From Ascidia mentula (lineage: Eukaryota > Chordata > Ascidiacea > Phlebobranchia > Ascidiidae): a stretch of DNA of 64,000 nt. Positions within the stretch are counted from its first letter, which is position 1. Every line of letters begins with the position of its first letter. Shown here piece by piece: positions 21,453 through 48,959 of the stretch. The stretch lies in NCBI GenBank assembly GCA_947561715.1, contig OX387204.1, positions 3,973,001 to 4,037,000 on the forward strand, given 5' to 3'. The translations under genes and the position numbers were made by a program. The notes beneath the pieces were generated by a model, which did no database searches, had not been told where the DNA came from, and saw only the letters and a list, made by a program, of their open reading frames with translations.

Positions 21453-22982
21453 ATGAGTGAAATCACAGAAAAGCATCATTATGGAAGTATGGAAAACGCA
21501 GAGGAAGCACCTGCTCCACCATATTCTGCAAATGAAGGCACTTTGGAAAGTGGACCACCACCACCTTCTTATGGTGATACACAAAACGAAGCCCCACCCC
21601 CAACCTATGAGGCTTTATATGGAGAAATACAGGAAGCAAGGAGGAATGCTAGTGGAAGGGGCGATTTTCTGAAAAATGTTTGCATAATTTTGTTTAGCAC
21701 AAGTAAGATATGATAAAATATTTTTGGTAGTAAATGCTTAGGGGGGTATAAAATTAATTAGTTCATTTACTAGTTCCCTTTAAAAGTTTAGGCTTTATAG
21801 ATGCAGTAAGTTTCCTACTTGCACAGTATTTAAGTTCTGATCTTAACAATTTTATTGCATCGCAGTTGGTTTTACGATCGTTATTGGATTGTTGCTGGCA
21901 ATCCCTGTTGCAATGATAGTCGTTGGTAAGTTGGTATTAGGAAGTTGAGCTATCCTTTGTACAATTTTTATGGATACATTTGTTTTCAGGTGCCATTAAC
22001 ATTAAGAATTGTCCCATGGAACCTCTCATTCCAATATGGTTGATTGTTGGAGGAGCTGTTTCTGGTCTCATGCAAGTATTTTCCATTTTGAAGAGAATTA
22101 AGGCCAAGTGTAAAAATGAGCCCCAAGAGCAAGATGAAGGAGGTCGTGCATACAACTCTTGCAATGGATTGCTTGGGTGCTTTAACTGTGCTTGGTTTTT
22201 TGCTGGTAAGTGGTATTTTATGTTTGAATATTTGGTTACAATGGACAGAGAGTAATAAGAGATGCAAGATACAGTGTTGCGTTTGCAAGATACAGTGTAT
22301 CAGCAAGTAGATTCTATAAATAGTTTATGTTTCTATTATCCATATATACCAGTACAAATCTACAAGAATGCTTTAGTTTCCAGTGGTTAGGTTTTGGACA
22401 TCTGTGATGTACAGTTTTTGCTGTATTATGAAAATGCAAGTTTTGGTATGCATAGACATCAATATCGTTTAATAGCAGGTATGAAAGTTTTGTGTTGATT
22501 TGAAGTGTTTGCTTACATTTTCGAGAGTATAAACTGTTTGACAAAAACTATTTTTCAATTCCAAAAGTGGAAATGTAATGTCAGCTTGGTTTCCTCCGTG
22601 ATTTCCAGATGGTGTTGAGTTCTATTTCCTCAGTTTCAGCTGTAGCAATATGTACTAGTACGTAAACTTTTTGATTCGGTGTATAACGTCAATTTTGCAC
22701 TTCTATATGAAATATTATGTATGTATGGGTAGTGCCATTAATGTCTGCATGTATCCATTTACTATTTGTGACACAAAATGAAATTTTTCTTCTGTTATAG
22801 GTAATGTTTGGGTATACAGATACTACCGTCCAGAAAACAATCCATCGCTTCTTTATTGTGATCCAACCACCTATTATTTTGCATTTGGAATTTTAACCAC
22901 AGTGTATGTGTTCATTGCACTGATTTGTTGTTGCTCCTGTTGCATTGCCATGTGTGCTGGGAGCAGCAGTTCAGATGACTAA
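21453..22982 (+). CDS. TMEM272-like four-pass membrane protein, gene A (4 exons)
   Basis: Exons 21453-21702, 21866-21925, 21990-22205 and 22801-22982 give 235 residues; all joins are phase 1. The cytosolic N-terminus is acidic and proline rich with two PPxY motifs (PPSY, PPTY) and ends in GDFLKN. Exon 2 is 60 nt and encodes TM1 (IGFTIVIGLLLAIPVAMIVVG). Exon 3 has NCPMEPLIPIWLIVGG, containing the family motif and TM2, then TM3 (CFNCAWFFAG). Exon 4 starts GNVWVYRYYRP, has YCDPTTYYFAFG, and ends with a Cys-rich TM4. It matches vertebrate TMEM272 in layout and motifs; the molecular function of that family is not established. This is the only cluster member on the + strand and resembles gene I most. 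Confidence 0.85.
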
Positions 22983-24162
22983 AACTAATTTATGTCGTTT
23001 ACTTTCTAAGGCTTACTCTCCTTGTGTCTATACTCCTCATGCTCTTTTGTCTCGCAAGGTTTCAGATGACATGTTGTTTTGTGGCACAGGTTCTTTTAAA
23101 TTACTTGCTTGTATATACGATTTTAATTTCATTATGTACATGGCAGACTCCCATGGCAAAGTTTAATCTCAGTTACTCAAAGCTATATACACTTGAACTT
23201 GTTTGTTTTATCAATATATCAAGCTCCCATATCTCTAGCAACAGCCTTTTGTTGAACTAATGTCGTTGTGTGTTTAGTCGTGATGCCTGTTTTTTTTCTA
23301 CCGTTACTGGTTGATTTTCAGTAACCAACACTGGCTTACCATTGTGTCAAACCCTTTCAACTAACTGCAAAGTTCTTTTCAATGCTCACCCACCTAAAAT
23401 ATATATGTGCAGTATGACTTCTTCACTGTGGACTACTGCAATGTCTTCTGTAAGACCTATAAATATATTTTTGTGTGATGTGCCTTTTTGACATGTTGCA
23501 TGTCAGGTTAATGTAATTTGCCACAGATACCTTTTGGTTTATATGAGTGCCGTTTTGGGGATGCTGCACCCACTTCAATATCCATTGTACTCATCCATCA
23601 TAATATTATATGCATGTGCACAGCAAGTGGTATATTTCATGTTGTACCACAAAACAGTGGTCAAATTTCATATTGATGTTTGTCTTGTCCGTGGTTTAAA
23701 CTGAAGGTAGGTCATCTTTAATTATCAGATGTTTTGGGAAATGAAAAGTTTGTTCAAGTTTTAAATTTTTTTGGAAGTACGTAATATCATCTAAATTAGA
23801 GCGAGTTTTGACACAAATCCGATACGTAGGCATATCGAAAAGCAGCTTACTTCTTGTTCGTGTCGATGGTAACCCTGGTTACAATAAAACACGTTGTTTT
23901 GATTATTCAATAAATCATCTTTAACTTTTTATACCAGCTTACACGTTGCCTATTTTGCAGATATTTGTCTGAAACTATAGAGCATTCAAATTAAATTTAA
24001 CGTAGAAAATTTCGTTTCGGAAGATTTATTTTTAATGGAATAAAGATGCATTCAATAACTTACGATGGAAAGAACGAAAGAAGTGGGGGTAATTACAACG
24101 GTGCTAATTTTCTGTGGGTTTATTCATTTGTTACTTTGGATAAAGTCGCCCACATTATGGTG
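22983..24162. other. Convergent intergenic region, genes A and B
   Basis: 3' flanks of gene A (+) and gene B (-). A complement-strand AATAAA at 24119-24124 lies about 40 bp after the gene B stop and is a fitting poly(A) signal. No further gene is supported. Confidence 0.45.
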
Positions 24163-25805
24163 TTATTCTGGCACTCCAACAAAAGCAATGTAAATGCTAT
24201 ATAAAAGAAAAAGAAGCAAAAATATATAGAGGGCAATTATCATACCGAAAGCGTAATAGTAGTTTCCATTACAATAATCAGCAGCTGATTTGTCGGAGCC
24301 AGGTTTCCATGCACTGACAACCCAAATGGTTCCTATAACATACAACTGATGTAAATCGTTTGCCGATTAATTATATATCCGGCATACGCTAAACCAGGGG
24401 TTCTTAACCTGGGGTCCATGAACCCCCAAAAGGTCCGAGAAGATGCATTAAGGGGTCCATGAAATGAAATAAAATTATGCCGAAAATCCACGTATTTTCC
24501 TCTGTCCATAAGGTTTCGCTATCCACGAATTTTAATTTTTCGACATTTGCAATGTGTTTCTTGCAAAGGAGTCCATGGCTTTTCAAAGAATGCTTTAGGT
24601 GTTCGTGATCCAAAAAAAGGTTAAGAAACAGTGCGCTAAACCAACTTTGGAAGGTTGAAAAGTGGCTTGCAAACATAATATGAAAAATAGCGCACACAAC
24701 AAAACTGTTGCTTTTAAACAGATTAAGTCTGGTTTAATTTGGGAAAATAAGTGATATTTCGCGAAATGGACAGCGTCAGGTCCTCACTCAAATGGAAGGT
24801 ACGAAAAAGTGGCATGACAAAAACTTTGACGAATATAAGCCTTCTCACCACAAGGATTTTAATCACCAGCCAACCGCTTATTATTGATGCTATCATCAGC
24901 AAACCGCTTGCTATAACACTCACCGGCAACTTGCCAAGCAAACAAAAATAAAGAACTAATAAGATTGACGAATGCCATAACGGGACTTGCTCTTCCATCG
25001 GGAGTCTGTCTTTTGAGATAACGACTCGATTCGAACAGCCCCAAAAACAGTGAAAGAGTTCCAACCGCTCCCGTTACCACCATCCAGACTTCCACCATGG
25101 GCTCGGCTGGGCAATCATTTAAAGAGGCAGCTCCTGACGATGGAATACACAATAAAAAATGTTGTGGCAGTTGGAACGCTTTTTCTGTAAAAAGGAATTG
25201 TTGTGTTTTTTTGTGGGGGTCTCTCTTTGTGTGTGTGGTGGGAAGGTTGGGGTAGGCAAATTGAAGCGACACAAAAAAAATATGTTTGTTTCACTATTTG
25301 GCTGCGTTAATCGTAAAATTCAAGTAATTATTCTTCATCAATAAAAATCCGTGCGGTTCCCGCTACTATACTACGGGACTATTTGGTTTTCGAACATGTT
25401 TATCAATTTACTGATGGTGTTGCATGCTTACATCACAACGTTACAAGGCTACTTAGCCTACCTGTTATTAGCACCGACAAAAACACTCCGATGAAGGCAC
25501 AATAAACTCCCATAAACCAACCTAAATATAAAGTTGTTCATTTTGATGATCACCTTATTAGCTGTCGTTTTTATCACTGTTATTACTGTATGGTTGTTTA
25601 AAAACAAAACTTAATTGCTAACATATAATCGAAAACCTGTGATTTAATTGAAGGACTTACGACGACGGTAGAAAACTAATTTAACTTGATGCAAACAGTC
25701 CACGGTCCCTTCGGCACTATGCACTGCCCGTCTCAGACAGTAATTGAGCCCATCTTCGTTACAATCTGAAACGCTGGGTTTTGCTTCAATATTTGATTGA
25801 GACAT
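24163..25805 (-). CDS. TMEM272-like four-pass membrane protein, gene B (4 exons)
   Basis: Exons in order: 25805-25661, 25521-25462, 25133-24924 and 24332-24163 (TAA); 194 residues with phase-1 joins. The N-terminus is short (MSQSNIEAKPSVSDCNEDG...) and lacks PPxY; it ends in the cluster's conserved exon-1 tail (VDCLHQVKLVFYRRR). Exon 2 is 60 nt and encodes TM1. Exon 3 (210 nt) has NDCPAEPMVEVWMVVTGAV and TPDGRASPV between TM2 and TM3. Exon 4 begins GTIWVVSAWKP and has DYCNGNYYYAFG before TM4. A hAT-type element sits in the last intron. Intron 1 is only about 140 bp. It groups with genes C, D and F by N-terminus and the PAEPMVE motif. Confidence 0.82.
24387..24641. mobile_element. hAT-type non-autonomous element, 8-bp target duplication
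   Basis: The element spans 24395-24633. It starts CAGGGGTTCTTAACCTGGGG and ends with AAAGGTTAAGAAACAGTG, an imperfect inverted repeat. A perfect 8-bp duplication CGCTAAAC flanks it (24387-24394 and 24634-24641). The 8-bp duplication and CAGGGGTTC-type end are hallmarks of the hAT superfamily. It lies in the last intron of gene B and has no coding capacity. Confidence 0.85.
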
Positions 25806-25820
25806 CCTGCAGCCTGTCAA

Positions 25821-26096
25821 AGTGTTGCCAGATTTTTTTCACAAAATGCGCCAAATTTTTTGTTTCAACACGCCCAAAAGCGCCAAATTCTGCAAAAACA
25901 ATACGCTCAAATGCGCCCAATGTTAATGAAGTTTACACATACAGCAATGGTGATTTCATGCCTATGGTTGGCTGCACTCATCTCACAAAAAAAACATTTA
26001 AACGGAAAACTAAAACTGTGAACACGAGCAGGACACAAGTCAAGGTGCAACAAAAAAGCGCAAACACCTAAGACAACACGCCCATCTGGCAACACT
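25821..26096. mobile_element. Short inverted-repeat element upstream of gene B
   Basis: Perfect 13-bp inverted ends, AGTGTTGCCAGAT (25821-25833) and ATCTGGCAACACT (26084-26096), bound about 276 bp without a gene. The left end lies 16 bp upstream of the gene B start codon, so it may form part of that gene's 5'UTR or promoter. I could not confirm a target duplication. Confidence 0.55.
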
Positions 26097-27773: not shown

Positions 27774-28310
27774 CTAAGATTCTGACAATTGGCTGCTGGC
27801 CACATACACGCAATAGATGACCAATCCAACTGTGATAAAGTATCCAAAAATCACCAGCGCAAAAGCAAAGTAGTAATTCCTGTCGCAGTAGTCCACAGAC
27901 TTTATTTCAGAGCTTGGCTGCCATATGCTGAACACCCAAACACTCCCTATAAATTATAAATAAACCAATTTGCGTGATTCTTCTATTGCCCAATAAAAAT
28001 ACGTATGTAAGTATAGACGTGTATAAAAATTATTTTCCATTCTGTTTAAATTTTAGAATATTACATTGATATATACTTCTAATAGTGGCCTTATACATAC
28101 CGACAACAAGCCATCCGCATAAGAATATAATCGCAAAGAGGTTAAAAATTGTTATTATGGGACTTCCCCTGCCGTCAGGGTCATGGCCTTTCCAAAAACG
28201 CACAGCCTCAAAAAGGCCCAGCAATAGCAACATAGTTGCAACAGCTCCGGCCACGAGCATCCATATTTCAACCATAGGCTCGGCCGGGCATTTGTCCAGA
28301 GAGACCGCCC
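27774..28310 (-). CDS. TMEM272-like gene C, exons 3 and 4
   Basis: Exon 3 is 28310-28101 (210 nt) with DKCPAEPMVEIWMLVAGAV and HDPDGRGSPIIT. Exon 4 is 27946-27774, starting GSVWVFSIWQP, with DYCDRNYYFAFALV, then TM4 and TAG. Both exons are open with correct splice sites and the usual phase 1. What is missing is a matching exon 1 and 2 next to them. An exon-1 copy at 28564-28454 lacks a splice donor, and no exon 2 lies between. Phase-compatible exons 1 and 2 lie at 33759-33687 and 33620-33561, about 5.3 kb upstream on the same strand, beyond gene D. If those are joined, gene C is an intact 171-residue protein with gene D nested in its intron 2. Otherwise it is a broken gene. Confidence 0.7.
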
Positions 28311-28453
28311 CTGTAACAGAACAATGAATATTAAATGATGTTTTCCAGAAGAACTTCTACTTTTTGTGTGGCAAGTTCCGAACTCTGCATTTATTTAGCT
28401 ACGTGCAAGACGATTTCTCATTCAAATTAATCTAGTTAATTTATTTTAATTTT

Positions 28454-28564
28454 ATGGTTGAAAACTTGCTTCACTCTTTGCATGTAATCCAACGGCCCCT
28501 CAGCGTCGCGTAGCGCGAGTCTTAAACCGTTGCTAAAACCATCGTACTGGATTGATTGTTGCAT
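28454..28564 (-). pseudogene. Orphan TMEM272-like exon 1 without splice donor
   Basis: Starts at ATG 28564 with MQQSIQYDGFSNGLRLALRD and ends GPLDYMQRVKQVFNH, the typical exon-1 tail. The coding text then stops abruptly at 28454, where other members continue with a basic codon and GTAAG. Its last 54 nt (28454-28507) are identical to 33691-33744 in the second exon-1 copy; the rest differs. The DNA past the break (28376-28453) is a near copy of 33257-33330. This marks a rearrangement joint rather than simple decay. Confidence 0.75.
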
Positions 28565-29419
28565 TTTGATGCTTTTTTCACCAATAGCAAAACATGCAGT
28601 TGTGCCTGAAACTTTAGCTATTTCCAGTGTTCTTGGGAACGAACGATTTACTTTATTTGTACTCTACGAAAAACTGAAATCTGATCGCTTTGCACTACTT
28701 GGGCAAAGGACCATGAAACGATACATTTACCGGACACGAATCCGCCTATAAATATGATACTTATACGCTCTCCAGGTTTATATCATCCTTTGTCATGTGT
28801 GCCAATATTTGTTGATGGAACGCACCTTATCACTTGTCACGTTAACAAACTGTCCTCAAGAAATGATAGACACTGCGGTCACGCCTAATAAGCAAAGACC
28901 ACACTCGATAAATTGTCAGTTGTTCTGATTTCCTCAAATAAATGCAATCAATAAAAATAAATCTCAAAAAATTGAAAAGTTAATTAACGTGTTGAAATGC
29001 TTTAGCTTCATTTATCAACACCGAAATGTGTTTAATACCATTCTCAACACTTAAGCACATGGTATGTGTAAAACCATCTCCTGCTATTTGTTTGCACTGC
29101 TTTCGAATGTTGCGTATAATGCTTTACAGATTATACCTGCTTATTGACAACAAATTGAAATGAAAATGGACTAAAAACTTTTTTTCAGCATCCGGAAGTA
29201 ATTATCGTTTGTTATTCCACTCAGTATGATGTAAGAACAGAGGGAAGTTATATGAACAAGAAGGTGTGGGAGTTTTCGTAACCATAAGTGACGCACAGCA
29301 ACACCTTTTCAGTACGTACGTGGTTAATGTGTTCTCACAGTGATCAGCAAAAACTTCTTTATACCTTTCTGCTTTTTTACTCCGCTATTCTTGCTGCCAG
29401 GCGTAGTAAATTTCACATA

Positions 29420-29475
29420 AATTTATACCCTGAGGAAGTCTCGCCGGAAGGTGGACCGAAACGTTAGCTACAATA
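29420..29475 (+). repeat. Transposon-end-like motif CCTGAGGAAG...CCGAAACGTTAGC (copy 1)
   Basis: The pattern CCTGAGGAAGTC then a short hairpin-like stretch then GACCGAAACGTTAGC is the kind of sequence often found at 3' ends of repeated elements in animals. It is present again at 35551-35606 in the duplicated block. It also resembles the conserved core of a hammerhead ribozyme (CUGANGA ... GAAA). Whether it folds or cleaves is unknown. Confidence 0.35.
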
Positions 29476-30014
29476 AAGACTCTCGTAACTTATGTAACCG
29501 ACGCAACAGCTTATCTATGTCTGTTAGGTACTATGCAGTTTTTTGCGCTTACTGCCACTGGCTTGCAATACCACTAAAGTTATCAAATAAAATCTGTCAT
29601 TGAAAAGGGCATCCTTTTAGGTGGCGAATATCAAGAGATTCGGAATTTATTGATACATGATTAGAAAATTTAGCAATGCTCAGGGCGTCTTTATCTGAGT
29701 AGTAGACATCACTGGATGTTAGATAAGATTTAGGAGAATATTAGAGTGCATTTCCTGTACTGCAACGTCGGTGTTAAAATAAATTTTTTCGTCTCACTAT
29801 AGACTTTACGAATGTTCGCTTCCCACAACAACGATCAATTTTATTTTTTACTGAAAATTACTGACTGAAAATAGGTTTGTGAAGGTAAAAGCGGATTTTA
29901 AAAAATAAGCACAAGAATTTTAGAAAGAAAACATCTGAGTGTTCAGTTTAGTTTGGAATAAAAGTAAGTTCATCTGCGTGTTGAGGAATATGTTGCAAGC
30001 ACTGTAGCAGACAG

Positions 30015-31416
30015 TTACTTCAGGTAATCCGGCTTTCTGCTGAGTCCAATGTACGCACAGTAAACACCGACAACGGCAGTGATAATGTAGCCCAATAACA
30101 CCAATGCGAAGGCATACCAGTAGTTTCCGTCGCAGTAGTTGCTGTTACTTCCGATCATGGTAGGCTTCCATATTCTGAACACCCACACACTCCCTGAAAA
30201 GATAAGCACCAAGTTTTGTCATTCTAAATAACTTTGGAATGATATTGGTTTAAATAAAATTGTATTTTGCTGAAAAAAATGCAAACACGAACAACAAACA
30301 TGAATAAATGAAAATGACATTAGTGACGATAAAACCGTAAGAGTGATCGTGTCATGCACCCATGTGAAAGTGATTTTCTCACAGGGATCACCGTCTGTCG
30401 TATGATCGCAGTAAGTGGGAGGGTTTGGGTTACGACAAGCATTAGGGTTATGGGGACAGTTGTGCGACGCCGCCGTTTTCATAAAATTTTGTTCAAAGTT
30501 GGGAATGATTGTCCCTCAAAAGATTATTATATAAACTGAAAGTGTTGTCTCAACCGTATACACTACATACAAACTGATTTTCTGACCATATGGGACTGCC
30601 CTATCCCAAATCATCCTATATTATTTTTAAGTATCAACATTCAAACATTAATTCCCATTGCACATAACATTTGAACATACCGGCAATAAGCCAAGCATAA
30701 AGAAACAGAATTCCGATGAGGTTCAGAATTGTTATCACGGGACTTCCCCTGCCATCCGAATCATGACCTTTAAAATACAGAATGGCTTGAATCACACCAA
30801 GCATCATCATAAGAAGTGGAACAGCCCCGACCACAATCATCCAAACCTCGACCATTGGTTCGGCCGGGCATCGGTTCAAGTTGACGACACCTGTAATGAT
30901 GAATTCAAAGTGAAGTTGAAAAAAAAAAATGGTTGTTTGTGTGGCGCAGGGAATATTGGAAATTTAGACATATAATATTTGTGTAAGCATTGGTGTGTCT
31001 AAACTGACAGGTAAATCTCTGTCCAATAATTGAACTCGTATGTTTTTTTACGACAAATTGCTTGACTCGTTTTACTGCACCGAGGAAAGTTTATAATGTT
31101 TGGAATACCTGATATGAGTGCTGAAATTGGGAGTCCTATCACAACGAAGAATGCAAACGAACAACCTATGAGAACAAACAAATTTTCCTTTTAGCTTGTT
31201 TTGGGTAAAGATAATGTTGCTAATTTTTGTAAAAACCCCTGTAACTTATTACGTATATAACCTATAAAGATTACTTTAATTTATATTTGATTACTTACGT
31301 CGGCGGTTAAGAACCTGATTGACATTCTGCATATAATCCAAGGGCCCTTGGGCGGTGTGACGAGCGTGCTTAAGTCCAGCTGTAAAAGATCTGCATTGGG
31401 GGTCTCCCTCGGCCAT
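30015..31416 (-). CDS. TMEM272-like four-pass membrane protein, gene D (4 exons)
   Basis: Exons in order: 31416-31299, 31165-31109, 30890-30681 and 30193-30015 (TAA); 187 residues. The N-terminus is short (MAEGDPQCRSFTAGLKHARH) and ends GPLDYMQNVNQVLNRR; it has no PPxY. Exon 2 is 57 nt, one codon shorter than in the other members, and encodes TM1. Exon 3 has NRCPAEPMVEVWMIVVGAV, HDSDGRGSPVI and TM2-TM3. Exon 4 has GSVWVFRIWKP, YCDGNYWYAFALVLLGY and the tail IGLSRKPDYLK. Gene F is its duplicate. It lies between the two parts of gene C on the same strand. Confidence 0.87.
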
Positions 31417-32283
31417 TTTTCACTGCAACTTCAATTCTTAAATCTAATAAATCCTAAAAAATATAAAAACCGTGAATTAGTTTCTGTTCTTTGAGATACA
31501 TTTTTCGAACTATAAAATCCTTTTATCAATTGCAAATGTCAAAACAAGAAATAATGGGCGAATAGGAAAACCTCACTGAAATAGTGCAAGCAAATTATTC
31601 ACGCTAAACTGACTCGTGTTGTTTAACTCGCCCTACTAAAATTTACCCAAGCCAAGTGCTATCCTTTATCACCCATGTGATTCCAAGTTTTGCTAAAAAC
31701 CACGATATCGCGATATGACAATAGTTGATGATGTTATGACAATACTCGAAGCAAACACAACGTTTGAAACGACGTCAAAGCAGCGCAATGGAGTGTGTAT
31801 ATATGTTACATATAATATAACGCATTATGTGTTTTGAGAAATGTATCCTTGTTTAAGAAAGTCACATGTTAAATTTACTTAACAATATCAGTAACATATT
31901 GCTAATTCGTTAAATACGCCACCATGTTAATATATCTCAGCATAAAATAACAAAACGATAACCCACACCTCATTCAATGTACAACTGTGTAGTAATTTAT
32001 GTGCTACATTTCAAAATCTAAGCACCGAAGACTGGCCTTCGCTTTACAGGTTTTCGGTATTCATACATTTCACACTTTTAGCACATGAACAATCGCAGAC
32101 CAAACATCGGCATAAGCTCAAAACTTTAAAACACTGACACTGACGCACATATAAACTTTGTGCTCACACTTCTGCTTCTGAAAGGGGATTTGCTTATTCA
32201 GCACTGGAGCCGCATATCAGCGTTGTTGGTTCCATAATGTTTACGTTGTGGGCGTGCAAGAGATAAACACACATTCGATTTTG

Positions 32284-32410
32284 ATTTGCGTGACCCTTGC
32301 CCATACATTTGACATAATCAAACTCGTGATCTCGGCGTACTGAAAACCTGACTTGACTCGATTGGGTAAACACACTTGACGCAACACAAAACGTTTGGGA
32401 CAATGCCACC
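32284..32410 (-). promoter_or_regulatory. Upstream CRE/E-box module, copy 1 (variant)
   Basis: Begins TGCGTGACCCTTGCCCATAC and contains ACTCGTGATCTCGGCG, with one base changed from the CACGTG core found in the other copies. It lies about 0.9 kb upstream of the gene D start. The pairing of a CRE-like site with an E-box is seen; promoter activity is inferred from position and repetition. Confidence 0.45.
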
Positions 32411-32844
32411 CTCGATAGGCGTTGAATGTGTCATTAAAAAAGTCAAATATGATTGGGGCTCGTTATTGTCCAATGTCTGTGCCTCTGCAAGTATATGAAA
32501 GAGCCATATTCTTCAATATTGGAAAATATCACATCAACATTCATTATGCAAAATGGATAAAAAAAACATCCGTAAAATCAGTAAAATGTACGGAGTGTTT
32601 TTTCATGTAATATTGCCCAACATTGAGCTTGAGCGTTAGGCACGAATTGCCCGTAATTCATAAGCTTTGCCTCCTTGTTACATTTTTACCTGAGAAAACA
32701 GTACTAACTGTGACATAACAATTATACAATTAAGGGAATTTAAACACTGAAACTGATAGAACCCGCGAACTCCATTTATACTCTCAAAAACTATGCACAA
32801 GGCGTCATGTGATCGGGTGTTGTCATGGTATTCAAAAAAGGCGC

Positions 32845-32960
32845 GACCCTTTCTCCTACATCTGACGTAATGAGACACGTGATCTCGGCGCATTGTGAGT
32901 CCGACGTGAGTAAACTGGAAATTTACAAAAATTTACACGGCGCAACGTTGAACGTTAGTG
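32845..32960 (-). promoter_or_regulatory. Upstream CRE/E-box module, copy 2
   Basis: Contains ACATCTGACGTAATGAGACA followed directly by CGTGATCTCGGCG, so a CRE-like TGACGTAA is 6 bp from a perfect E-box CACGTG. It is followed by ACACGGCGCAACGTTGAACG. It lies about 1.45 kb upstream of gene D. Confidence 0.45.
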
Positions 32961-33560
32961 AAATACATCCGAGCTGAACGTACCTTTGAAACTACTACAG
33001 TTTACAACGGAGTCGTTGTCGTTTAATAATTGCCCATGCAATAATAAAAGTGTTAGGTCAGTAGTTCCGATAATAATTGCTGTTTAACGCCTGGAGCGAT
33101 ACGTTTTACATTTAATGCAAGAATTCAATCGCAACCAAACGATTGTGCGCAAATTAATTTTTCAAACACGCAATCTGCAACAACGTCTTCGCGATTTTAG
33201 ACATTCAAATTTTTTCTTTATTTTTGCCAATTCAGTACGGTTGAGTTACTTTTCCTTGCTCTGCAATTATTTAGCAATCTGCAAGACGATTTCTCATTCA
33301 AATTAATCTAATTAATATATTTTAATTTTATTTAAACACGTGGTTGTGGAAACTGACGATGTCTAATCTTCAGAGCTGTCCGTTACGATCTCTGTTTGAA
33401 TTTTTGACAAGAATATTCTCATTTATTTATTACTATTGTTTTCTATTTCCTTATGGAGAGAAGGAGTGTGCTGTGTAGGTCTTGATCTCGTGATGCCAGC
33501 TCTCTTCGAGCCAACCGTTTCTGATATTCTGTCTTAGCTCTCTTATGCATACACTGTTAC

Positions 33561-33759
33561 CTGATGTCATGGCTGACAATGGGATTCCACTGATTCCGCA
33601 ACAAAATGCAAACAGGCAATCTAACATGCACAATAGCAATGTTATGCGAGATGGCACTGAAAACAAACTAACAAAAACATTCTTACAACGATGGTTGAAA
33701 ACTTGCTTCACTCTTTGCATGTAATCCAACGGCCCCTCAGCGTCATATGACACGGCCAT
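33561..33759 (-). CDS. TMEM272-like exons 1 and 2, probable 5' part of gene C
   Basis: Exon 1 is 33759-33687 from an ATG (MAVSYDAEGPLDYMQRVKQ...) to a good donor GTAAGA. An upstream in-frame ATG at 33801 is a second choice. Exon 2 is 33620-33561, exactly 60 nt, with an acceptor TTAG and donor GTAACA, and encodes TM1 (CLFAFCCGISGIPLSAMTSG). Both are phase 1, so they could splice to exon 3 of gene C at 28310. No exon 3 or 4 lies immediately downstream (33331-33560). Alternatively this is a gene fragment cut off by the block duplication. Confidence 0.6.
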
Positions 33760-33801
33760 GACAACTTTGCGTAAAACTAAAGGTACATCTACAACAAACA
33801 T

Positions 33802-34658
33802 ATATCCAAAGTTTCACGGTTCTACGTCAACTAAAAAATGTAAAAAACTGCACGAAAAGTAACGGCGTCCAAAAATCGTAAATCTTTTGCGCTAAGGAGA
33901 AAATGACATCACATAAGGCACTCGCGTCGAAAAAATGCATTGTTTAGATAGGAGAAGGCGCCTTTTTTTTGCAGATATCGAGTTTCAAACATGGGAGAAT
34001 CCACAGATTACGTTACCGTAAAGGTCAGGACAGGGTTTTGCATCACACAAAAATTTGTCATTGTGACGTCACGAATCAAAGGCTTATTTGTCTCTAATTA
34101 GCGGATGACCATAGGGTATAGAAGAAACGACATAACTGTGAGTGGACAAAACGACAATGCTAAACTAACTGTTTGTCTCTGTCGTGTTTTCAAAAGTTCA
34201 TGTATCACGTTAGCGATCATAAATGCTGTAACAACAAGAACACCCTGTCCCAGTAACTGTTTTATTATTGCACAACTAAATAGGACATAATAGGTCGAAC
34301 AGCGGCCATCTGTCTTCAGCTTAAATTAACATCAAAATCCGTTTATTTCACTTGTTTCCTTTTTGTCCCCTGTTTAATGCAATATTATGCTTAAACCGGT
34401 TTTACAATGTTTTCCATTCCTACGCATAAGGCTTGCTGCCAGCACTCGCGCACGACCGAAGCGCCTTCTATGACGTCACGCAACAATATCTCGCTTTCGC
34501 ACGATTTCGTTCGCAGCGGCAAAAGTGCGACTTTGATCAGCTGTATCTCAGAAACCGGTCGTCGTATCAAGCTACTATTTTCGCCAAAAATGTTCTAAAG
34601 TTATGAACATCTCTTAGTTTGATTATTAACATGTTTTATTTTTCCGTGTCATATGCAC
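33802..34658. other. Unique DNA between gene C exon 1 and copy 2 of the duplication
   Basis: About 0.85 kb not shared with the duplicated block. It includes a CRE-like TGACGTCACG near 34470 and short frames with no family motif. It could hold the gene C promoter if the 33.7-kb exon 1 is used. Confidence 0.35.
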
Positions 34659-35550
34659 TTTAAACCGTTGGTAAAACCATCGTACTGGATTGATTGTTGC
34701 ATTTTAATGCTTTTTTACCAATAGCAAACATGCAGTTGTGCCTGAAACTTTAGCTATTTCCGGTGTTCTTGGGAACGAACGATTTACTTTATTTGTACTC
34801 TACGAAAAACTGAAATCTGATCGCTTTGCACTACTTGGGCAAAGGACCATGAAACGATACATTTACCAGACACGAATCCGCCTATAAATATGATACTTAT
34901 ATGCTCTCCAGGTTTATATCATCCTTTGTCATGTGTGCCAATATTTGTTTATTGAACGCACCTTATCACTTGTCACGTTAACAAACTGTCCTCAAGAAAT
35001 GATAGACACTGCGGTCACGCCTAATAAGCAAAGACCACACTCGATAAATTGTCAGTTGTTCTGATTTCCTCAAATAAATGCAATCAATGAAAATAAATCC
35101 AAACAATCGAAAATTTAATTAAGGTGTTGAAATGCTTTAGCTTCATTTATCAACACCGAAATGTGTTTTATACCATTCTCAACACTTCGGCACATGGTGT
35201 GTGTAAAACCATCTCCTGCTATTCGTTTGCACTGTTTTTAAAAGTACATGTTGCGTATATTGCTTTACAGATTATACCTGCTTATTGACAACAAATTGAA
35301 ATGAAAATGGACTAAAAACTTTTTTTCAGAAGTCGGAAATAATTACCGTTTGTTATTCCACTCAGTATGATGTAAGAACAGAGGGAACAAGAAGGTGTGG
35401 GAGTTTTCGTAACCATAAGTGACGCACAGCAACACCTTTTCAGTACGTACATGGTTAATGTGTTCTCACAGTGATCAGCAAAAACTTCTTTATACCTTTC
35501 TGCTTTTTTACTCCGCTATTCTTGCTGCCAGGTGTGGTAAATTCCAAATA

Positions 35551-35606
35551 AATTTATACCCTGAGGAAGTCTCGCCGGATGGTGGACCGAAACGTTAGCT
35601 ACAATA
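35551..35606 (+). repeat. Transposon-end-like motif CCTGAGGAAG...CCGAAACGTTAGC (copy 2)
   Basis: The counterpart of the motif at 29420-29475, carried along in the segmental duplication, with one base changed in the loop region. The core parts CTGAGGA and CGAAACG are kept. Confidence 0.35.
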
Positions 35607-36149
35607 AAAACTCTCGTAACTTATGTAACCGACGCAACAGCTTATATCTATGTCTGTTAGGTACTATGCAGTTTTTTTGCGCTTACTGCCACTGGCTTGC
35701 AATACCAAGTTATCAAATAAAATGTGTCATTGAAAAGGGCATCCTTTTACGTGCCGAATATCAGGAGATTCGGCATTTACTGATACATGATTAGAAAATT
35801 TAGCAATGCTCAGGGCGTCTTTATATGAGTATTAGACATCACTGGATGTTAGATAAGATTTAGGAGAATATTAGAGTGCATTTCCTGTACTGCAACGTCG
35901 GTGTTAAAATAAAATTTTTCGTCTCATACATACTATAGACTTTACGAATGTTCGCTTCACACAACAACGATCAATTTTATTTTTAACTGAAAATTGCTGA
36001 CTGAAAATAGGTTTGTGAAGGTAAAAGCGGATTTAAAAAAATAAGCACAAGAATATTAGAAAGAAAACATCTGAGTGTTCAGTTTAGTTTGGAATGTTGT
36101 AAGTTCATCTGCGTGTTGAGGAATATGTTGCAAGCACTGCAGCTGACAG

Positions 36150-37570
36150 TTACTTCAGGTAATCCGGTTTTTTGCTGAGGCCAATGTACGCACAGTAAAC
36201 ACCGACAACGGCAGTGATAATGTAGCCCAATAACACCAATGCGAAGGCATACCAGTAGTTTCCGTCGCAGTAGTTGCTGTTACTTCCGATCATGGTAGGG
36301 TCCCATATGCTGAACACCCACACACTCCCTGAAAAGATAAGCACCAAGTTTTGTCATTCTAAATAACTTTGGAATTTTATTGGATTAATAAAATTTAATT
36401 TTGCTAAAAAAAATGCAAACACGAAGAACCAACATGAATAAATGGAAATGGCATTAGTGACGATAAAACCGTATAGGTGATCGTGACATGCACCCATGTG
36501 AATGTGATTTTCTCACAGGGATCACCGTGCGTGTCGTATGATCGCAGTGAGTGGGAGGGTTTGGGTTACGACAAGCATTAGGGTTATGGGGTCAGTTGTG
36601 CGACGCCGCCGTTTTCATAAAACTTTGTTTAAAGTTAGGAATGATTGTCCCTCAAAAGATTATTATGTAAACTGAAAGTGTTGTCTCAACCGTATACACT
36701 ACATACAAACTGATTTTCCGACCATATGGGACTGCCCTATCCCAAATCATCCTATATTATTTTTAAGTATCAACATTCAAACATTAATTCCCATTGCACA
36801 TAACATTTGAACATACCGGCAATAAGCCAAGCAAAAAGAAACAGAATTCCGATGAGGTTCAGAATTGTTAACACGGGACTTCCCCTGCCATCCGAGTCAT
36901 GACCTTTAATATACAGAATGGCTTGAACCACACCAAGCATTATTAGAAGAAGTGAAACCGCACCGACCACAATCATCCAAACCTCGACCAGTGGTTGTTT
37001 CGGGCATCGGTCCACGTTTATGGCACCTGTAATGATGCATACTAAGTAAAGTTGAAAAAAAAACTTTTAAAAGTTTTGTCACGTGATATACTTTAGAAAT
37101 TTGGCCATAAAATAATTGTGTAAACATTAGTACGTCTAAACTGACAGGTAAATCTCTGCCCAATAATTGAACTGGTATGTTTTTTGAGACAAATTGCTTG
37201 GCACGTTTCACTGCTGCGAGGAAAGCATAATGTTTGGAATACCTGATATGAGTGCTGAAAGTGGAAGTCCAATGAAACCGAGGGAGATTCCAAACGAACA
37301 ACCTATTGGAACAAACAAATTTTACTTACATTTTTTAGTTTGTTGTGTATCCAAACGTATACAGCAAAGAATAATGTTGCTAATTTTTGTAAAAACTCCT
37401 GTAACTTGTATATAACCTACAAAATTACTTATATTTATATTTGATTACTTACGTCGGCGGTTAAGAACCTGATTGACATTCTGCATATAATCCAAGGGCC
37501 CTTGGGCGGTGTGACGAGCGTGCTTAAGTCCAGCTGTAAGAGATCTGCATTGGGGGTCTCCCTCGGCCAT
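36150..37570 (-). CDS. TMEM272-like four-pass membrane protein, gene F (4 exons)
   Basis: Exons in order: 37570-37453, 37302-37243, 37026-36817 and 36328-36150 (TAA); 188 residues. It is the duplicate of gene D and keeps the same N-terminus (MAEGDPQC...) and tail (GLSKKPDYLK). Exon 2 is 60 nt, with a changed TM1 (FGISLGFIGLPLSALISG). Exon 3 begins with MDRCPKQPLVEVWM instead of NRCPAEPMVEVWM, so the motif around the first luminal Cys-Pro has changed while the rest of TM2-TM3 is almost the same. Exon 4 reads GSVWVFSIWDP. Splice sites and phases are intact. Confidence 0.87.
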
Positions 37571-38425
37571 TTTTCACTGCAACTTCAGTTCTCAAATCTA
37601 ATAAATCCTAAAAAATATAAAAACTTGAATTAGTTTCCGTTCTTTGAGATACATTTTTCGAGCTATAAAATCCTTTTATCAATTGCAAATGTCAATACAA
37701 GAAAATAATGGGCGAATAGGAAAATCTCACTGAAATAGTGCAAAGCAAATTATTCACACTAAACTGACTCGTGTTGTCCTACTACGAAAATTTACCCAAG
37801 CCAAGTGCTATCCCTTTTCACCCATGTGATTCCAAGTTCTGCTGAAACCACGATATCGCGATATGACAATAGTCGATGTTATAACAATACTCGAAGCAAA
37901 CAGGGCGTTTGAAACGACGCCAAAGCAGCGTAATGAACAATTGAGTATGTATAGATGTTAGATGTAATAAAACTCATGTTTTTGAGAAATGTATCCTTGT
38001 TTAAGAAAGTCACAAGTTAAATTTACTTAACAATATCAGTAACATACTGCTAATTCGTTAAATACGCCACCATGTTAATATATCTTAGCATAAAATAACA
38101 AAAGAATACCCTACACTTAATTCAATGTACAACTGTGTAGTAATTTATGTGCTACATTTCAAAATCTAAGCACCGAAGACTGGCCTTGCTTTACAGGTTT
38201 TCGGTATTCATACATTTCACACTTTTAGCACATGAACAAGCGCAGACCGAACATCGGCATAAGCTCAAAACTTTAAAACACTGACACTGACGCACATATA
38301 AACTTTGTGCTCACACCTCTGCTTCTGAAAGGGGATTTGCTTATTCAGCACTGGAGCCGCATATCAGCGTTGCTGGTTCCAAAATGTTTACGTTGTGGGC
38401 GTGCAAGAGATAAACAAACATTCGA

Positions 38426-38560
38426 TTTTGATTTGCGTGACCCTTGCCCATATATTTGACATAATCAAACACGTGATCTCGGCGTATTGAAAACCTGACC
38501 TGACTCGACTGGGTAAACACACTTGACGCAACACAAAACGTTTGGGACAATGCCACCCTC
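38426..38560 (-). promoter_or_regulatory. Upstream CRE/E-box module, copy 3
   Basis: Counterpart of the 32284 module in the duplicated block, about 0.9 kb upstream of gene F. Here the E-box is perfect (ACACGTGATCTCGGCG, 38469-38484) where copy 1 has CTCGTG. The flanking TGCGTGACCCTTGCCCATA is kept. Confidence 0.45.
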
Positions 38561-38731
38561 GATAGGCGTTGAATGTGCCATTAAAAAAGTCTAATATGAT
38601 TGGGGTTCGTTATTGTCCAGCAATGCCTGTGCCTCTGCAAATATGAAAGAGCCATATTCTTCAATGTTGGAAAATATCACATCAACATTCATTATGCAAA
38701 ATGGATAAAAAACATCCGTAAAATCAGTAAA

Positions 38732-38953
38732 ATGTACGGATTGTGCAAAGCTGCAGACAGGGTGTGTACACGCACTGTTTCGACCTGTGAGGTCTCATCA
38801 GTGCAGCCGTTGAGTGGCACTGTGCTAGCTTTCACACTAGCAGGCACACTAGTCTCCACTTTGTGGTACCTTTCGGTCAATGTCGATCTGCAGGGTACCC
38901 TATACTGCAGCTTTGCAATATTATGGCTTTTTTTGCACATATGTACGGATTGT
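38732..38953. mobile_element. Short insertion with inverted ends, 13-bp target duplication
   Basis: Present only in copy 2 of the block. The repeated 13-mer ATGTACGGATTGT lies at 38732-38744 and 38941-38953, and copy 1 has a single near match, so the empty site is visible. The insert starts GCAAAGCTGCAGACAGGG and has the inverted CCCTATACTGCAGCTTTGC near 38897-38915, then about 25 bp more. It shares ACTGTTTCGACCT with the foldback element at 61168. It is therefore younger than the block duplication. Confidence 0.75.
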
Positions 38954-39194
38954 ATTTTCATGTAAAATTGCCCAACATTAAGCTTTAGCGTTAGCCACGA
39001 ATTGCCCATAATGCATAAGCTTTGCCTCCTTGTTACATTTTTACCTGAAACAACAGTACTACCTGTGACATAACAATTATACAATTAAAGGTATTTAAAT
39101 ACTGAAACTGATAGAACCCGCGAACTCCATTTATACTCTCAAAAACTATGCACAAGGCATCACGTGATCGGGTGTTGTCATGGTATTAAAAAAA

Positions 39195-39310
39195 GGCGCG
39201 ATCCTTTCTCATACATCTGACGTAATGAGACACGTGATCTCGGCGCATTGGGAGTCCGACGTCCGTAAACTGGAAATTTACACAAATTTACACGGCGCAA
39301 CGTTGAACGT
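39195..39310 (-). promoter_or_regulatory. Upstream CRE/E-box module, copy 4
   Basis: Contains CATCTGACGTAATGAGACAC then GTGATCTCGGCGCATTG. First of two copies in the tandem repeat upstream of gene F. Confidence 0.45.
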
Positions 39311-39490
39311 TACTGAAATACATCCGAGCTGAACGTACCTTTGAAACTACTACAGTTCACAACGGGCTCGTTATCGTTTAATAACTGTCCATGCAATAAT
39401 AAAAATGCTAGTTACACTTTTCACACGAATACTCTCAAAAACTATGCATAAGGCATCACGTGATCGGGTGTTGTCATGGTATTAAAAAAG

Positions 39491-39606
39491 GCGCGATCCT
39501 TTCTCATACATCTGACGTAATGAGACACGTGATCTCGGCGCATTGTGAGTCCGACGTGCGTAAACTGGAAATTTACAAAAATTTACACGGCGCAACGTTG
39601 AACGTT
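39491..39606 (-). promoter_or_regulatory. Upstream CRE/E-box module, copy 5
   Basis: Second copy in the tandem repeat, again with TGACGTAA and CACGTGATCTCGGCG in the same order and spacing. Confidence 0.45.
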
Positions 39607-39935
39607 AGTGAAATACATCCGAGCTGAACGTACCTTTGAAACTACTACAGTTTACAACGGAGTCGTTGTCGTTTAATAATTGCCTATGCAATAATAAAAA
39701 TGCTAGTTACACTTATCACACGAATTGGTTAGTTCAATATAGTTCCGATAATAATTGCTGTTTAGCGCCTGGAGCGATACGTTTTACATTTAATGTAAGA
39801 ATTCAATCGCAACCAAACGATTGTGCGCAAATTAATTTTTCAAACACGCAATCTGCAACAACGTCTTCGCAATGTTAGACATTCAAAATTTTTCTTTATT
39901 TTTGCCAATTCAGTACGGTTGAGTTACTTTTCCTT

Positions 39936-43440: not shown

Positions 43441-43610
43441 AATCTGGTTTGCGTGACCCTTGCTCATACATCTGACGTAATCAAACACGTGATCTCGGCG
43501 TATTGAGAACCCCACCAAATTCGACTGGACAAACACTCTTGGAGCAGCACAAAAGCGTTGTGACAATACCGCCCGTGACAGGCGTTGAATGTTTCATAGC
43601 AATATTTGGA
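43441..43610 (-). promoter_or_regulatory. Upstream CRE/E-box module, copy 6
   Basis: Starts TGCGTGACCCTTGCTCATAC and contains CATCTGACGTAATCAAACAC then GTGATCTCGGCG. The flank down to AGGCGTTGAATGT also matches the upstream DNA of genes D and F. It is joined to a broken exon-3 piece at 43763, so here the module is separated from any complete gene. Confidence 0.45.
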
Positions 43611-43762
43611 CTCGTATAGAGATGGTTTATCACCGTTTTGTCCTCCAGAGTATTTGCGGTCCCTTTTGGTATCGAACGTTTCTTGTGAATTCCTTTTTCG
43701 TTTGTTCAACAACCTTAATTTTTGTGTTACATTTGGCAGGTCTGGGTGAACGAAGTACCAAG

Positions 43763-43843
43763 AAGTGAAAACCGCACCGACCACAATCATCCAAACCTCC
43801 ATCGGTGGTTTGGCCGGGCATCGGTTAACGTTAATGGCACCTT
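43763..43843 (-). pseudogene. TMEM272-like exon 3 fragment
   Basis: Reading the - strand from an acceptor-like TTATTAAG, the text gives VNRCPAKPPMEVWMIVVGAV, clearly the start of exon 3 of the gene D/F type. It then loses similarity to the family and continues into unrelated sequence. No exon 1, 2 or 4 lies nearby. It is a decayed or transplanted fragment. Confidence 0.75.
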
Positions 43844-44715: not shown

Positions 44716-45668
44716 TCACGGTTCGCTGGCTTCGTTCTTGTTTTGTTTCGCGGCGCAGCAAATGCATCCACAGCAACAGCAGAAGAAGAACATGCAGATA
44801 TAGGCGATGAGGAGCAGGGCGAACGCGTACAGGTAAGTTCCCCGGTCGCAATAGTTTGTCGAAGTGATGTTACTCAACTCTGGTCGGTAGTTGCTGAACA
44901 CCCACACGCTGCCTGTCAGGTAATGGTAAATTTTAACACAGATGGAATTCATCTTCGGGGATTTGATGAAGATTCTTGTTCATTTCTATAGGCAGGTATA
45001 TTACTATTGTGAATCCCGTAGTTAAATTTTTAAAGCATTTCAATATTCACCGCATATGAACCAGGCAAATAAAAACAATGAACAGATCGACTGGAAGATA
45101 CGGAAGAACTTGTTTCCTTGTGTGTCCTCATCGTCACTGTTTCCACCTTGATCCGGGTTCAGGAGTTTATCGATGATAGCTGCACCCTTCATTGCCAAGA
45201 AGACGGATCCAGACACGATCATCCAAATAGGAATGAGACGCTGTACTGGGCAGTTGTTGAGATTGAGGGCACCTAAACATATATGTTTAGTTTTGGGCTG
45301 ATAACATGACAATTTTCACAACAAAATAAGATTGGTTTATACCTACGATGATCTGAGACAGCGGTATTGGCAGAAGCAAGAGCATCATTGGTATGCTGGC
45401 CTCTGAAACACAATAGTTTATATACAGTCACCACAACGTCAATGAATTCCAAACAAATACAATGGAACATCATGTTACTAGTGTTGTACACTGCCTGCCC
45501 GGATTTCTTCATATAGTCGTGTGGATTGGAGGATGTTCTTTGAGCATTTTTGAGTTGGTCCAGCCATGATCCATAAGCTGGTGGTGCTTCTGCTGATCTA
45601 ACGTGGCTTCCGTATCCTGGAGGATTTTCGGCATCCTTATCCACAGGTTGTGACTCAAGAGGCTCCAT
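44716..45668 (-). CDS. TMEM272-like four-pass membrane protein, gene H (4 exons)
   Basis: Exons in order: 45668-45479, 45402-45343, 45272-45051 and 44912-44716 (TGA); 222 residues. It is the close duplicate of gene G: MEPLESQPVDKDAENPP, two PPxY motifs (PPGY, PPAY), GSWLDQLKNAQRTSSNP, and TM1 ASIPMMLLLLPIPLSQIIVG. Exon 3 is 222 nt because of four extra codons (DQGG) in the acidic loop. Exon 4 has GSVWVFSNYRPEL, YCDRGTYLYAF and an even more Cys-rich TM4 (CCCCGCICC). Intron text next to the exons is also shared with gene G, so the duplication included whole genes. The start at MEP was chosen by comparison with gene G; an upstream in-frame ATG at 45686 exists. Confidence 0.88.
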
Positions 45669-47738
45669 ATCGCACGTCAAGCGCAAATGCTATTAAAATT
45701 CTAATTACCCTGCAATATTACGTACACGTTTAGTCAGAGATTTGAAACACCGCTCGTTTACTGGGTCTGTAGACCTTTTAACAATGGCGTAATTTTATCC
45801 TTGACGATAATTTATTTTGCATGTTCGCCTTGTTCTAAACCACAAACACTGACCTGTTCCTGTACCTGTGTGTTTAAGTTAAGTTACAAATAGGATTGCG
45901 TTACACTACAAACCAACGCTCCCCTTTGCAAATACTAGCCCTGTTGGTCCAAACAATTCGACCCAATGAGCGATGTAGGCTTTAGCTTGACATATACGTC
46001 AGAAAATCTTAACCTGGCATCTTTTCAGGTAGTCTAGTATTAATACAAACGCAAGGTCTTTCGTATGTCCATCACTAATAGCCGTCCATCGCTCTGGGAC
46101 ATGGGTATCAAATTTCTCTGTGGCAACAGCAGCTACATGGCAACGCCCGCTCAATCCGCATTACTGAACCTCGCGTTGTTTTCAAATGGCTTCGCCTTCT
46201 TTGCTCGTTGCCCAGTCGCCCTCCAGCTTCATGCATAATTGACTGGCACTACTGTAGAGTTGTGTTGCAATTGCAGCGAAACTAGTTTGCTGAACGTCCG
46301 TATGTCAGCCGTTCAGAAACAAAATGCACAAATCATGCTTGTAAGGGGCTTCCTCATTTTCCTGTTGGTTGAACTAATGACATGTCAAGCGAATGCGCGT
46401 ATTTAGATGACAGAGCTGTGCTGTTTGTTCACATTGCGTTGGTTTCAAGAGGAATTTGTTTAACAGCAACTTACACCCACACTCGTTTTAGGCTTTCATT
46501 TGACAACAATTTTTTTGACGATAGTTATTATACAGAGACAACGTTTGCACCTGCTGTTAGTTTTGTGCGATATTAACAACTATAGGCATTAATTGTCATG
46601 AACAAATATAAATCTTTTTGAAATTCGATTATTTTCTTACTGGACATTCACAAATGGCAATTGAATGCAGACATAAAATACTACTTCTAAAAATCACTGG
46701 CTTAAACAAAACGTTACAAAGGAGAGCTTTTATCTGCGGGCCCAACACAAATCACGCTTGTGGTTATGCATTTTTCGGCCTTATGATCACGCGTGACCTT
46801 TTAAAATAGATTACTGTAATGCTGCGAATAAAATGTGCGTGCTGAAACTGAAGAGCAGTCATAAGACAGCGATATTACATCGCACGTGCTTAAAAAGGCT
46901 TGCGCAACCGAAGTCTTTCAACATTGCTGTGACGGAACGTCAACAGACTTTTGTTCTCGGTGAAGCATGAAAGGAATAAGGCGCGCTCTACAAGAGCGGG
47001 GGCGTAACACAAACCATCGTTGCCTGACCTGTGACGCTAGTCACCTGACGGGATTGACCAATCACGTGCAACAAGCTCTCTGTGGCCTTAAATTCCATGA
47101 ATTTTTTTCCGGTGATTGGTAAAACATGACATACCAGCACACTCGACAAATAGTTACTTATCTAGATTTTCTGACCAAATTTTATTTGTTTTTTCGCGTC
47201 ACAGTGACATTTCGCGACATAGAATTGAATTATTGTAATTTTCATTGGTCTTTCTATACGTCATCAACACTTTCATCTCTATTGGTTTTTATTTAGTTTG
47301 CTTGGTTACTAAGTTATTTTCGTTTGCTTGAAACGGTTGCAGAACTTACTTTCTGATCCTTGAGGTACATTGAAACACGGTGTACACACTCATAGGGGTT
47401 GGGGTTGGATTCCGTATATTTTGTAGTTTGTACATGGGCACGAAGTGAATTCTTGATTTTGGCATGGCACACGCATAATTTATGTTTGGAACAGAATGCA
47501 ATCAAATGTCTTGCACATTTTGCTGCAGCACTTCTGTGTTTTTTGTACAACTGAGTGGAATACTGCTTTGAACATAATACAGTTGTGCAAAGTTTGGTAA
47601 CTAGTGCTGTATATATAGGTTACACAAGCGTTAACAAAGGTTGGCTTATTTACACGATTATAATTTTCATTTGTACAATATTGCACTAATATTGTTATTA
47701 TTATGACACCCCACCAGAAATAAATACTTAATATCCCA
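45669..47738. other. Intergenic region between genes H and I
   Basis: About 2 kb that should hold the gene H promoter. Short frames (46382-46576, 46618-46809 and 47314-47550) have no family motif or splice support. No repeat or RNA recognised. Confidence 0.4.
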
Positions 47739-48959
47739 TCAGGGCAGCACTTTGTTCAGACGTTTGCGAATGCTAATCCAACAACAACACCATATGCAGG
47801 AACAGGTACATGACAGAAAGCCTGTGATGAAATACACCAACAAAATGATGGTAAGAGCCAGATAGTAGGTCACGTGGTCGCAATAATGGTCATCGAAATG
47901 CTTTCCATGGGTGTTAGGACGGTAGATGCTGAACACCCACACATTACCTGTAAGAAGTAAATACACCAGTCAGGTAACAACATAGCCAATAAAATTGCAT
48001 GCAAAGCAGTAACGCCTTTAAAGAAAATTTGACGTTTTCAGCATGTCAGCCTATTTAAGTATATAACGTTAAAAGTGCCTTGCACAGTCCCTGCGAGGGG
48101 GTGCAGACGGCACGACTCACCAGGGGCCATACAAGTCCAAAGGGACACGTATGCAATTTGAACACACTTACATGTTCTCAAGGTTGTAAAGGTTTCAAAT
48201 ATATTGAAATACCTGACTAAACCACGTACCGGCTATAAACCAAGCAAACCAAAAACATCCAAGGACCAAGTGATTGGTACGATGACACCAATTTTTGTTA
48301 GTGGCCTCCGATGCCAGGTCCTTCTTGGTACATCGCTCTATAATGCTGTCCAACAGGTATATCACCTGCATAAGTGCAGCCAACGTCCCTGCCACTACCA
48401 ACCATATCGGAATGAACCTCTGAGCAGGACAGTTATAGATATTTATGGAGCCTGAAAAGAAATATGAAATGTTCATATTTTACGTCACTTGGCAGGTTTA
48501 TGAAACACTATTAGGTTGATTTCAACAAGAATTTGTAAAGTATCAAATTAATGCATTTTCTATCCTATAGGCTTAGACGCTGCTGACTATTACCAACCGA
48601 CATAACTTTAATATTAATAGGAAAGTATTGCTATCATTTCTCACCTATTGCGATCATTGTGACTGGAATAAACAACGTAACGCCCACCAAAATGATAACT
48701 CCAACTGCAAAAGAAGATATTGACAGGGTGTTATTGTTTTTATTATAGCATGACAACAAAATGATTAGTTACGCGTTCCGCAGATAATGTCGCAAAACTT
48801 CTGCATGAAGTCGCCCCCATCTTTTGCGGTGTCTCTTGCTTCTATAATTTTCCCGTACACGTCCTTGTAGGTTGGGGGAGATGACCCAAGAAGCGGGGCG
48901 CTGGCGGTAATGGCAGGGGCAGGGGCAGAGGGAGGGGGAGGGGGAGCACTGGTAGTCAT
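47739..48959 (-). CDS. TMEM272-like four-pass membrane protein, gene I (4 exons)
   Basis: Exons in order: 48959-48773, 48704-48645, 48451-48230 and 47947-47739 (TGA); 225 residues. The N-terminus is proline/alanine rich (MTTSAPPPPPSAPAPAI) with a PPxY motif (PPTY) and ends GGDFMQKFCDIICGTR, close to gene A's GRGDFLKN. Exon 2 (60 nt) encodes TM1 (LGVIILVGVTLFIPVTMIAIG). Exon 3 has YNCPAQRFIPIWLVVAG, a basic loop and TM3 (CFWFAWFIAG). Exon 4 has GNVWVFSIYRP, YCDHVTYYLALT, a Cys-rich TM4 (CTCSCIWCCC) and a basic tail (RKRLNKVLP). It appears to belong with gene A, which lies at the other end of the cluster on the opposite strand. Confidence 0.87.

Follow-up and report, generated by a model that had tools for sequence, protein, structure and literature searches.

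Birth and death in a tandem gene array for small ascidian four-pass membrane proteins, with joint presence or absence of a PPxY motif and a cysteine-rich tail

The 64,000-nucleotide stretch of ascidian DNA analysed here (the window) holds tandem genes for small four-pass membrane proteins that make up a birth-and-death array, in which a PPxY ligase motif and a cysteine-rich tail are jointly present in four of the seven intact genes and jointly absent from the other three. For an orphan membrane family to expand in tandem is nothing out of the ordinary; this joint presence or absence, on which the sequence-only reading of the locus did not remark, is the part worth following. A short tag that serves as a ligase recruiter in other proteins and occurs in four of the seven genes gives the orphan family a testable role, and it seems quite possible, if somewhat short of probable, that the PPxY-bearing members act as membrane adaptors for NEDD4-type ubiquitin ligases, as TMEM127 and Ndfip proteins do, the remaining members being uncoupled paralogues.

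Gene models, shared protein features and searches for relatives

Exon modelling places the intact genes at 21453-48959 of the window, g1 on the forward strand and the other six on the reverse strand (Table 1), in agreement with the number and location proposed in the sequence-only reading. All seven have four coding exons, and each of the 21 joins is in phase 1. Exon 1 is variable and hydrophilic (118-250 nt), exon 2 encodes the first membrane segment (TM1; 60 nt in six genes and 57 nt in g5), and exons 3 and 4 measure 210-222 nt and 170-209 nt, respectively. The common exon plan that had been proposed, with its phase-1 joins and 57/60-nt TM1 exon, is thus recovered throughout. All introns in the models are GT-AG, in part by construction, as exon ends were placed at GT and AG. 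An in-frame stop lies no more than 30 codons 5′ of the start in six of the eight genes modelled (g1, g2, g5, g6, g8 and g9), and in the five of these tested (g2, g5, g6, g8 and g9) no ATG intervenes between stop and start. For g3 and g7 no such stop was found within 30 codons, and their starts could therefore lie further upstream.

Table 1. Coordinates of array genes, remnants and associated features (positions in the window)
Feature	Positions	Strand	Details
g1, intact, 235 aa	21453..22982	+	exons 21453-21702, 21866-21925, 21990-22205, 22801-22982; PPSY + PPTY; Cys-rich tail
g2, intact, 194 aa	24163..25805	-	exons 25805-25661, 25521-25462, 25133-24924, 24332-24163; without PPxY
g3, damaged	27774..28564	-	exon 1 28564-28454, exon 3 28310-28101, exon 4 27946-27774; exons 3 and 4 open
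Tandem segmental duplication, copy A	28522..33257		carries g5; sequence comparison
g5, intact, 187 aa	30015..31416	-	exons 31416-31299, 31165-31109, 30890-30681, 30193-30015; without PPxY
f4, remnant	33561..33744	-	3′ part of exon 1 33744-33687, exon 2 33620-33561; without exons 3-4
915-nt insert in f4 exon 1	33745..34659		high-copy element, inverted ATATGACACGG ends
f4 exon 1, 5′ part beyond insert	34660..34702	-	sequence comparison
Tandem segmental duplication, copy B	34660..39935		carries g6; sequence comparison
g6, intact, 188 aa	36150..37570	-	exons 37570-37453, 37302-37243, 37026-36817, 36328-36150; without PPxY
g7, intact, 219 aa	41745..42771	-	exons 42771-42582, 42461-42402, 42312-42103, 41944-41745; PPAY; Cys-rich tail
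Isolated exon-3 fragment	43749..43842	-	best match 22 residues, 77% to g5
g8, intact, 222 aa	44716..45668	-	exons 45668-45479, 45402-45343, 45272-45051, 44912-44716; PPGY + PPAY; Cys-rich tail
g9, intact, 225 aa	47739..48959	-	exons 48959-48773, 48704-48645, 48451-48230, 47947-47739; PPTY; Cys-rich tail

The proteins are most alike in the portion encoded by exons 3 and 4, where 17 columns are invariant in all eight genes (the seven intact genes and the damaged g3), including CP, W, G..WV, P and YC. The previously noted G(S/N/T)xWV...P...YC motif is found in every gene; of the CPxxPxxxxW-type motif, CP and W are invariant, but the fifth position is P in only five of the eight genes and R in g7, g8 and g9. 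Each of the eight exon 3s, used as a tblastn query on the window, matched exon 3 of every intact gene at E <0.01, and the family likeness is therefore not a matter of chance. That search also gave eight matches beyond the array limits, with E 0.058-0.4, which were attributed to chance. Hydropathy yields four membrane segments in six of the seven proteins and three in g1, in which TM3 falls below the threshold used. With 5-8 Lys or Arg residues before TM1 versus 0-2 in the first outer loop, the N-terminus is expected to lie inside; both termini are predicted to be cytosolic. Also invariant in the eight genes are one cysteine after TM1 and one before TM4, and these single conserved residues of the two outer loops may be paired.

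As far as it was searched with four of the seven proteins, the 195.8-Mb genome supports a single location for the family. In six frames at E<=10, g1, g5, g9 and g8 gave 19, 21, 18 and 21 matches, respectively, and all 79 fall inside 21453-48959, in a search that scores the best candidates only and from which strongly divergent relatives could escape. There were no relatives among 124 pattern matches in viral contigs or 34 in prokaryotic genome contigs, and Rfam gave no match on the window. None of the seven proteins has a Pfam match above cut-off (best E 0.016), and the best match of g1 in a sequence search of the PDB has E 0.44. The best PDB match of the seven-protein profile, a short stretch of angiotensin-converting enzyme (E 0.14), was judged to be chance.

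The ascidian origin of the DNA is supported by the mitochondrial COX1 gene on contig C79, which is open under the ascidian mitochondrial code (e.g., IGGFGNWLLP) with Gly, the usual residue, at sites where the vertebrate mitochondrial code reads stop and the invertebrate one Ser. Around the array, three of ten neighbouring frames tested matched Pfam, two of them above cut-off: an HMG box at 18650-18847 (HMG_box_2, E 3e-12) and a long open frame at 52450-53826 (FAM171A1-2-B C-terminal, E 8.8e-08). The third, at 59487-59891 (zf-NF-X1, E 0.00093, below cut-off), is one of several cysteine-rich frames with an NF-X1 look at 58203-62018. An open frame of 335 codons at 50274-51281 has many hydrophobic stretches and a receptor-like look, with no Pfam match at E 0.001.

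Duplication, exchange and decay within the array

Tandem expansion, as originally proposed, is supported by the gene models, by a segmental duplication of about 5 kb and by comparison of exons 3-4. Aligned in 150-column steps, copies A and B of the duplicated segment are 91-99% identical outside 30755-31189 and 80-87% identical inside it. This interval is reflected in the g5/g6 pair, with identities of 89% in intron 1, 84% in exon 2, 83% in intron 2 and 90% in exon 3; exon 1 is 99% identical, and values of 93-97% hold for intron 3, exon 4 and the two flanks. Because the introns diverge along with the exons, this pair is more simply read as carrying a tract of exchange or conversion; diversifying selection was considered and rejected, introns 1 and 2 being as divergent as the adjoining exons. 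Identity is likewise patchy between g7 and g8 (exon 1, 86%; intron 1, 76%; exon 2, 97%; intron 2, 93%; exon 3, 92%; intron 3, 48%; exon 4, 76%), the low value for intron 1 being at odds with one simple exchange tract. The tandem duplication and the patchy identity, introns included, therefore point to local duplication and exchange. Close to an edge of the duplicated stretch, a unit of roughly 240-300 nt occurs three times, with two copies forming a tandem pair (39189-39725; 32834-33075); a 55-nt piece at 43451-43505 is related to it.

A tree of exons 3-4 groups g2, g3, g5 and g6 with support 100, and within this group joins g5 to g6 (support 76) and g2 to g3 (support 86). The g7/g8 pair has support 69, and these six genes are together set apart from g1 and g9 with support 96. 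Over the same exons g2 is 44-48% identical to g3, g5 and g6, and the identity of g1 and g9, whether between the two or with any other gene, is 25-41%.

Among the less intact members, g3 and f4 had been described as a single split gene, a description that does not survive comparison of the two. In g3, exon 1 is kept as far as ...CAACCAT and is followed directly by sequence of intron 2; exon 2 is absent, as is intron 1. Positions 28383-28455 of g3 match 33259-33331 and positions 28454-28507 match 33691-33744 in f4, from which it follows that 359 nt including exon 2 are present in f4 and absent from g3. The likeness of f4 to g3 stops near 33258, the duplication breakpoint where copy A begins, and its first exon is interrupted by the 915-nt insert. 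Since exon 2 is deleted in g3, and f4 is cut at the breakpoint and interrupted by the insert, these are two separate damaged copies rather than the halves of one gene. The insert has 908 candidate copies in the genome, and all 40 that were scored, the window's own included, are 94-100% identical; it is probably a young non-autonomous DNA transposon. Besides g3 and f4, the array holds the isolated exon-3 fragment at 43749-43842. Local duplication, patchy identity between neighbours, exon loss and element insertion are all observed here.

The two classes and their possible functions

Class I consists of g1, g7, g8 and g9, in each of which a PPxY motif is set exactly 31 residues ahead of the exon 1 end. 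Two such motifs are present in g1 and g8, and one in g7 and g9. The last 35 residues of these proteins, part of TM4 included, hold 5-8 cysteines. In class II (g2, g5 and g6) the motif is absent and the same stretch holds 0-1 cysteine; g3, inspected by eye, has no PPxY and one cysteine there. Apart from the g7/g8 pair, class I proteins share only 8-17 of 36 residues in this region, the motif itself counted. When class I exon-1 peptides were shuffled, PPxY appeared singly in 3-6.5%, in all four peptides at once in 1 of 20000 shuffles and in all four at a common distance in none of the 20000, figures that ignore shared descent and, with g7 and g8 being near copies, speak for conservation rather than independent gains. 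At the level of sequence, PPxY is seen to have been kept among otherwise diverged class I lineages; its fixed spacing is naturally explained by shared descent.

If class I proteins are indeed adaptors, their cytosolic N-termini would bind the WW domains of NEDD4-family ubiquitin ligases through PPxY, and the membrane part would bring the ligase to chosen membrane proteins, as in TMEM127 and Ndfip, with partner choice determined by membrane and loop surfaces. Class II proteins, and formerly g3, which lack both PPxY and the cysteine tail, could then act as uncoupled partners or competitors. In one study, the PPAY motif of TMEM127 binds WWP2 and moves it to vesicles (PMC7342019). In a second study, NDFIP2 requires several PY motifs to activate WWP2, and the single-PY TMEM127 by itself binds WWP2 without activating it and works when paired with SUSD6 (PMC12720080). 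Since TMEM127 alone binds WWP2 without activation, the single-motif proteins g7 and g9 would not necessarily do more than bind a ligase.

In favour of adaptors, the class I pair g7/g8 is under constraint, and WW domains are plentiful in the genome, with 38 matches, all above cut-off. Against them, no constraint is visible in g5/g6, the genome already has an Ndfip-type locus (C72:265840) and a TMEM127-type locus (on contig C69), PPxY is a short motif that WW domains outside the NEDD4 ligases also bind, and the split between classes could be plain loss of function in class II. It is distinctly unlikely, on our assessment, that genomically linked four-pass paralogues, some ligase-coupled and some uncoupled, would pair in the membrane, and that the orphan animal family would represent a third class of membrane adaptor for NEDD4-family ligases, encoded by several genes and supplying its own activators and dampeners.

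The distribution of conserved residues bears on a different possibility, which appears rather unlikely, namely a structural or pore-forming role like that of claudins, tetraspanins or channels, in which the conserved outer-loop motifs (CP... and G..WV...P...YC) form the working surface and PPxY is no more than a signal for turnover of the protein that carries it. Of 20 invariant columns in the seven-protein alignment, 17 lie in exons 3-4 and not in the N-terminus, and three intact genes do without PPxY altogether, as would suit such a role. Yet Pfam offers nothing above cut-off, the Tetraspanin model (PF00335) reaching a single protein at E 3.1 with 7.8 of the 32.1 bits at its cut-off, and there is no convincing PDB match by sequence.

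The possibility that function resides in class I only, class II and the remnants being duplicates in decay that recent tandem duplication has maintained, is considered unlikely. The g7/g8 pair is constrained (dS 0.365, dN 0.111, Fisher p 2.5e-7). For g5/g6, dN is close to dS (0.067 and 0.085, Fisher p 0.69), with no constraint visible among few changes, and together with the visible damage in g3 and f4 this is consistent with decay. In the older pairs g1/g9 and g2/g5, synonymous sites are saturated and the frames are open. Despite its divergence from g3, g5 and g6, g2 retains all 17 invariant columns and an open frame, which with the synonymous saturation of g2/g5 argues for long-lasting constraint on class II.

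Genes of immunity, secretion or epithelial use commonly lie in tandem arrays that undergo exchange, and a lineage-specific expansion for such purposes was the idea first put forward for this locus; the analysis turned up nothing that speaks for any of the three uses. The deep divergence of g1 and g9 would fit it, but the excess divergence of g5/g6 covers introns 1 and 2 (89% and 83%, against at least 93% in exons 1 and 4, intron 3 and the two flanks), as expected of an exchange tract and not of protein selection, and we regard this explanation as very unlikely. It is barely credible that the array mixes exons, with the orphan exon pair of f4 joined by splicing to exons 3-4 of either g5 or g3, as uniform phase 1 would allow; f4 does retain a donor, an acceptor and phase-1 ends, and exons 3-4 of g3 are open without an exon 2, but the 915-nt element interrupts exon 1 of f4.

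Comparison with known membrane proteins

Like tetraspanins, the array proteins are four-pass proteins with cysteines close to their final membrane segment, but they fall far below the PF00335 cut-off. NDFIP1 and NDFIP2 are, like class I, membrane proteins with one or more PPxY motifs, but none of the seven proteins matches Ndfip (PF10176) even at E<=10, and the genomic locus of Ndfip type is a separate one. TMEM127, described as a four-pass protein with a cytosolic PPxY and no sequence likeness to NDFIP1/2 (PMC7342019), is similar in plan to class I, whose motif is predicted to lie on the cytosolic side as well. It differs in that its PPxY is at the C-terminal end and that of the array proteins is N-terminal; the TMEM127-type locus is again separate, and PF20517 matches none of the seven proteins even at E<=10.

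The sequence-only reading had assigned the family to TMEM272. We found no title on TMEM272 function in the literature naming that protein, a body of work from which subscription journals were mostly absent, no mention of it among the matches listed for ascidian tandem duplication, and no literature match for the PANTHER number PTHR33444. TMEM272 and TMEM272-like proteins of animals have a four-pass plan, a CPxQPLIP-type motif after TM1 and G..WV...P...YC between TM3 and TM4. Of these traits the array has the four passes (in six of seven proteins by hydropathy) and CP together with G(S/N/T)xWV...P...YC (in eight of eight genes). The array motifs fit the pair that we take to be those of TMEM272, in which CP-x-[QE]-P follows TM1 and G(S/N/T)xWV...P...YC precedes TM4, a fit that serves as a lead only. 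The array differs from TMEM272 in having seven intact genes at a single location, three of which lack PPxY; should it prove to be TMEM272, its two classes would provide a natural comparison of members with and without PPxY and the cysteine tail.
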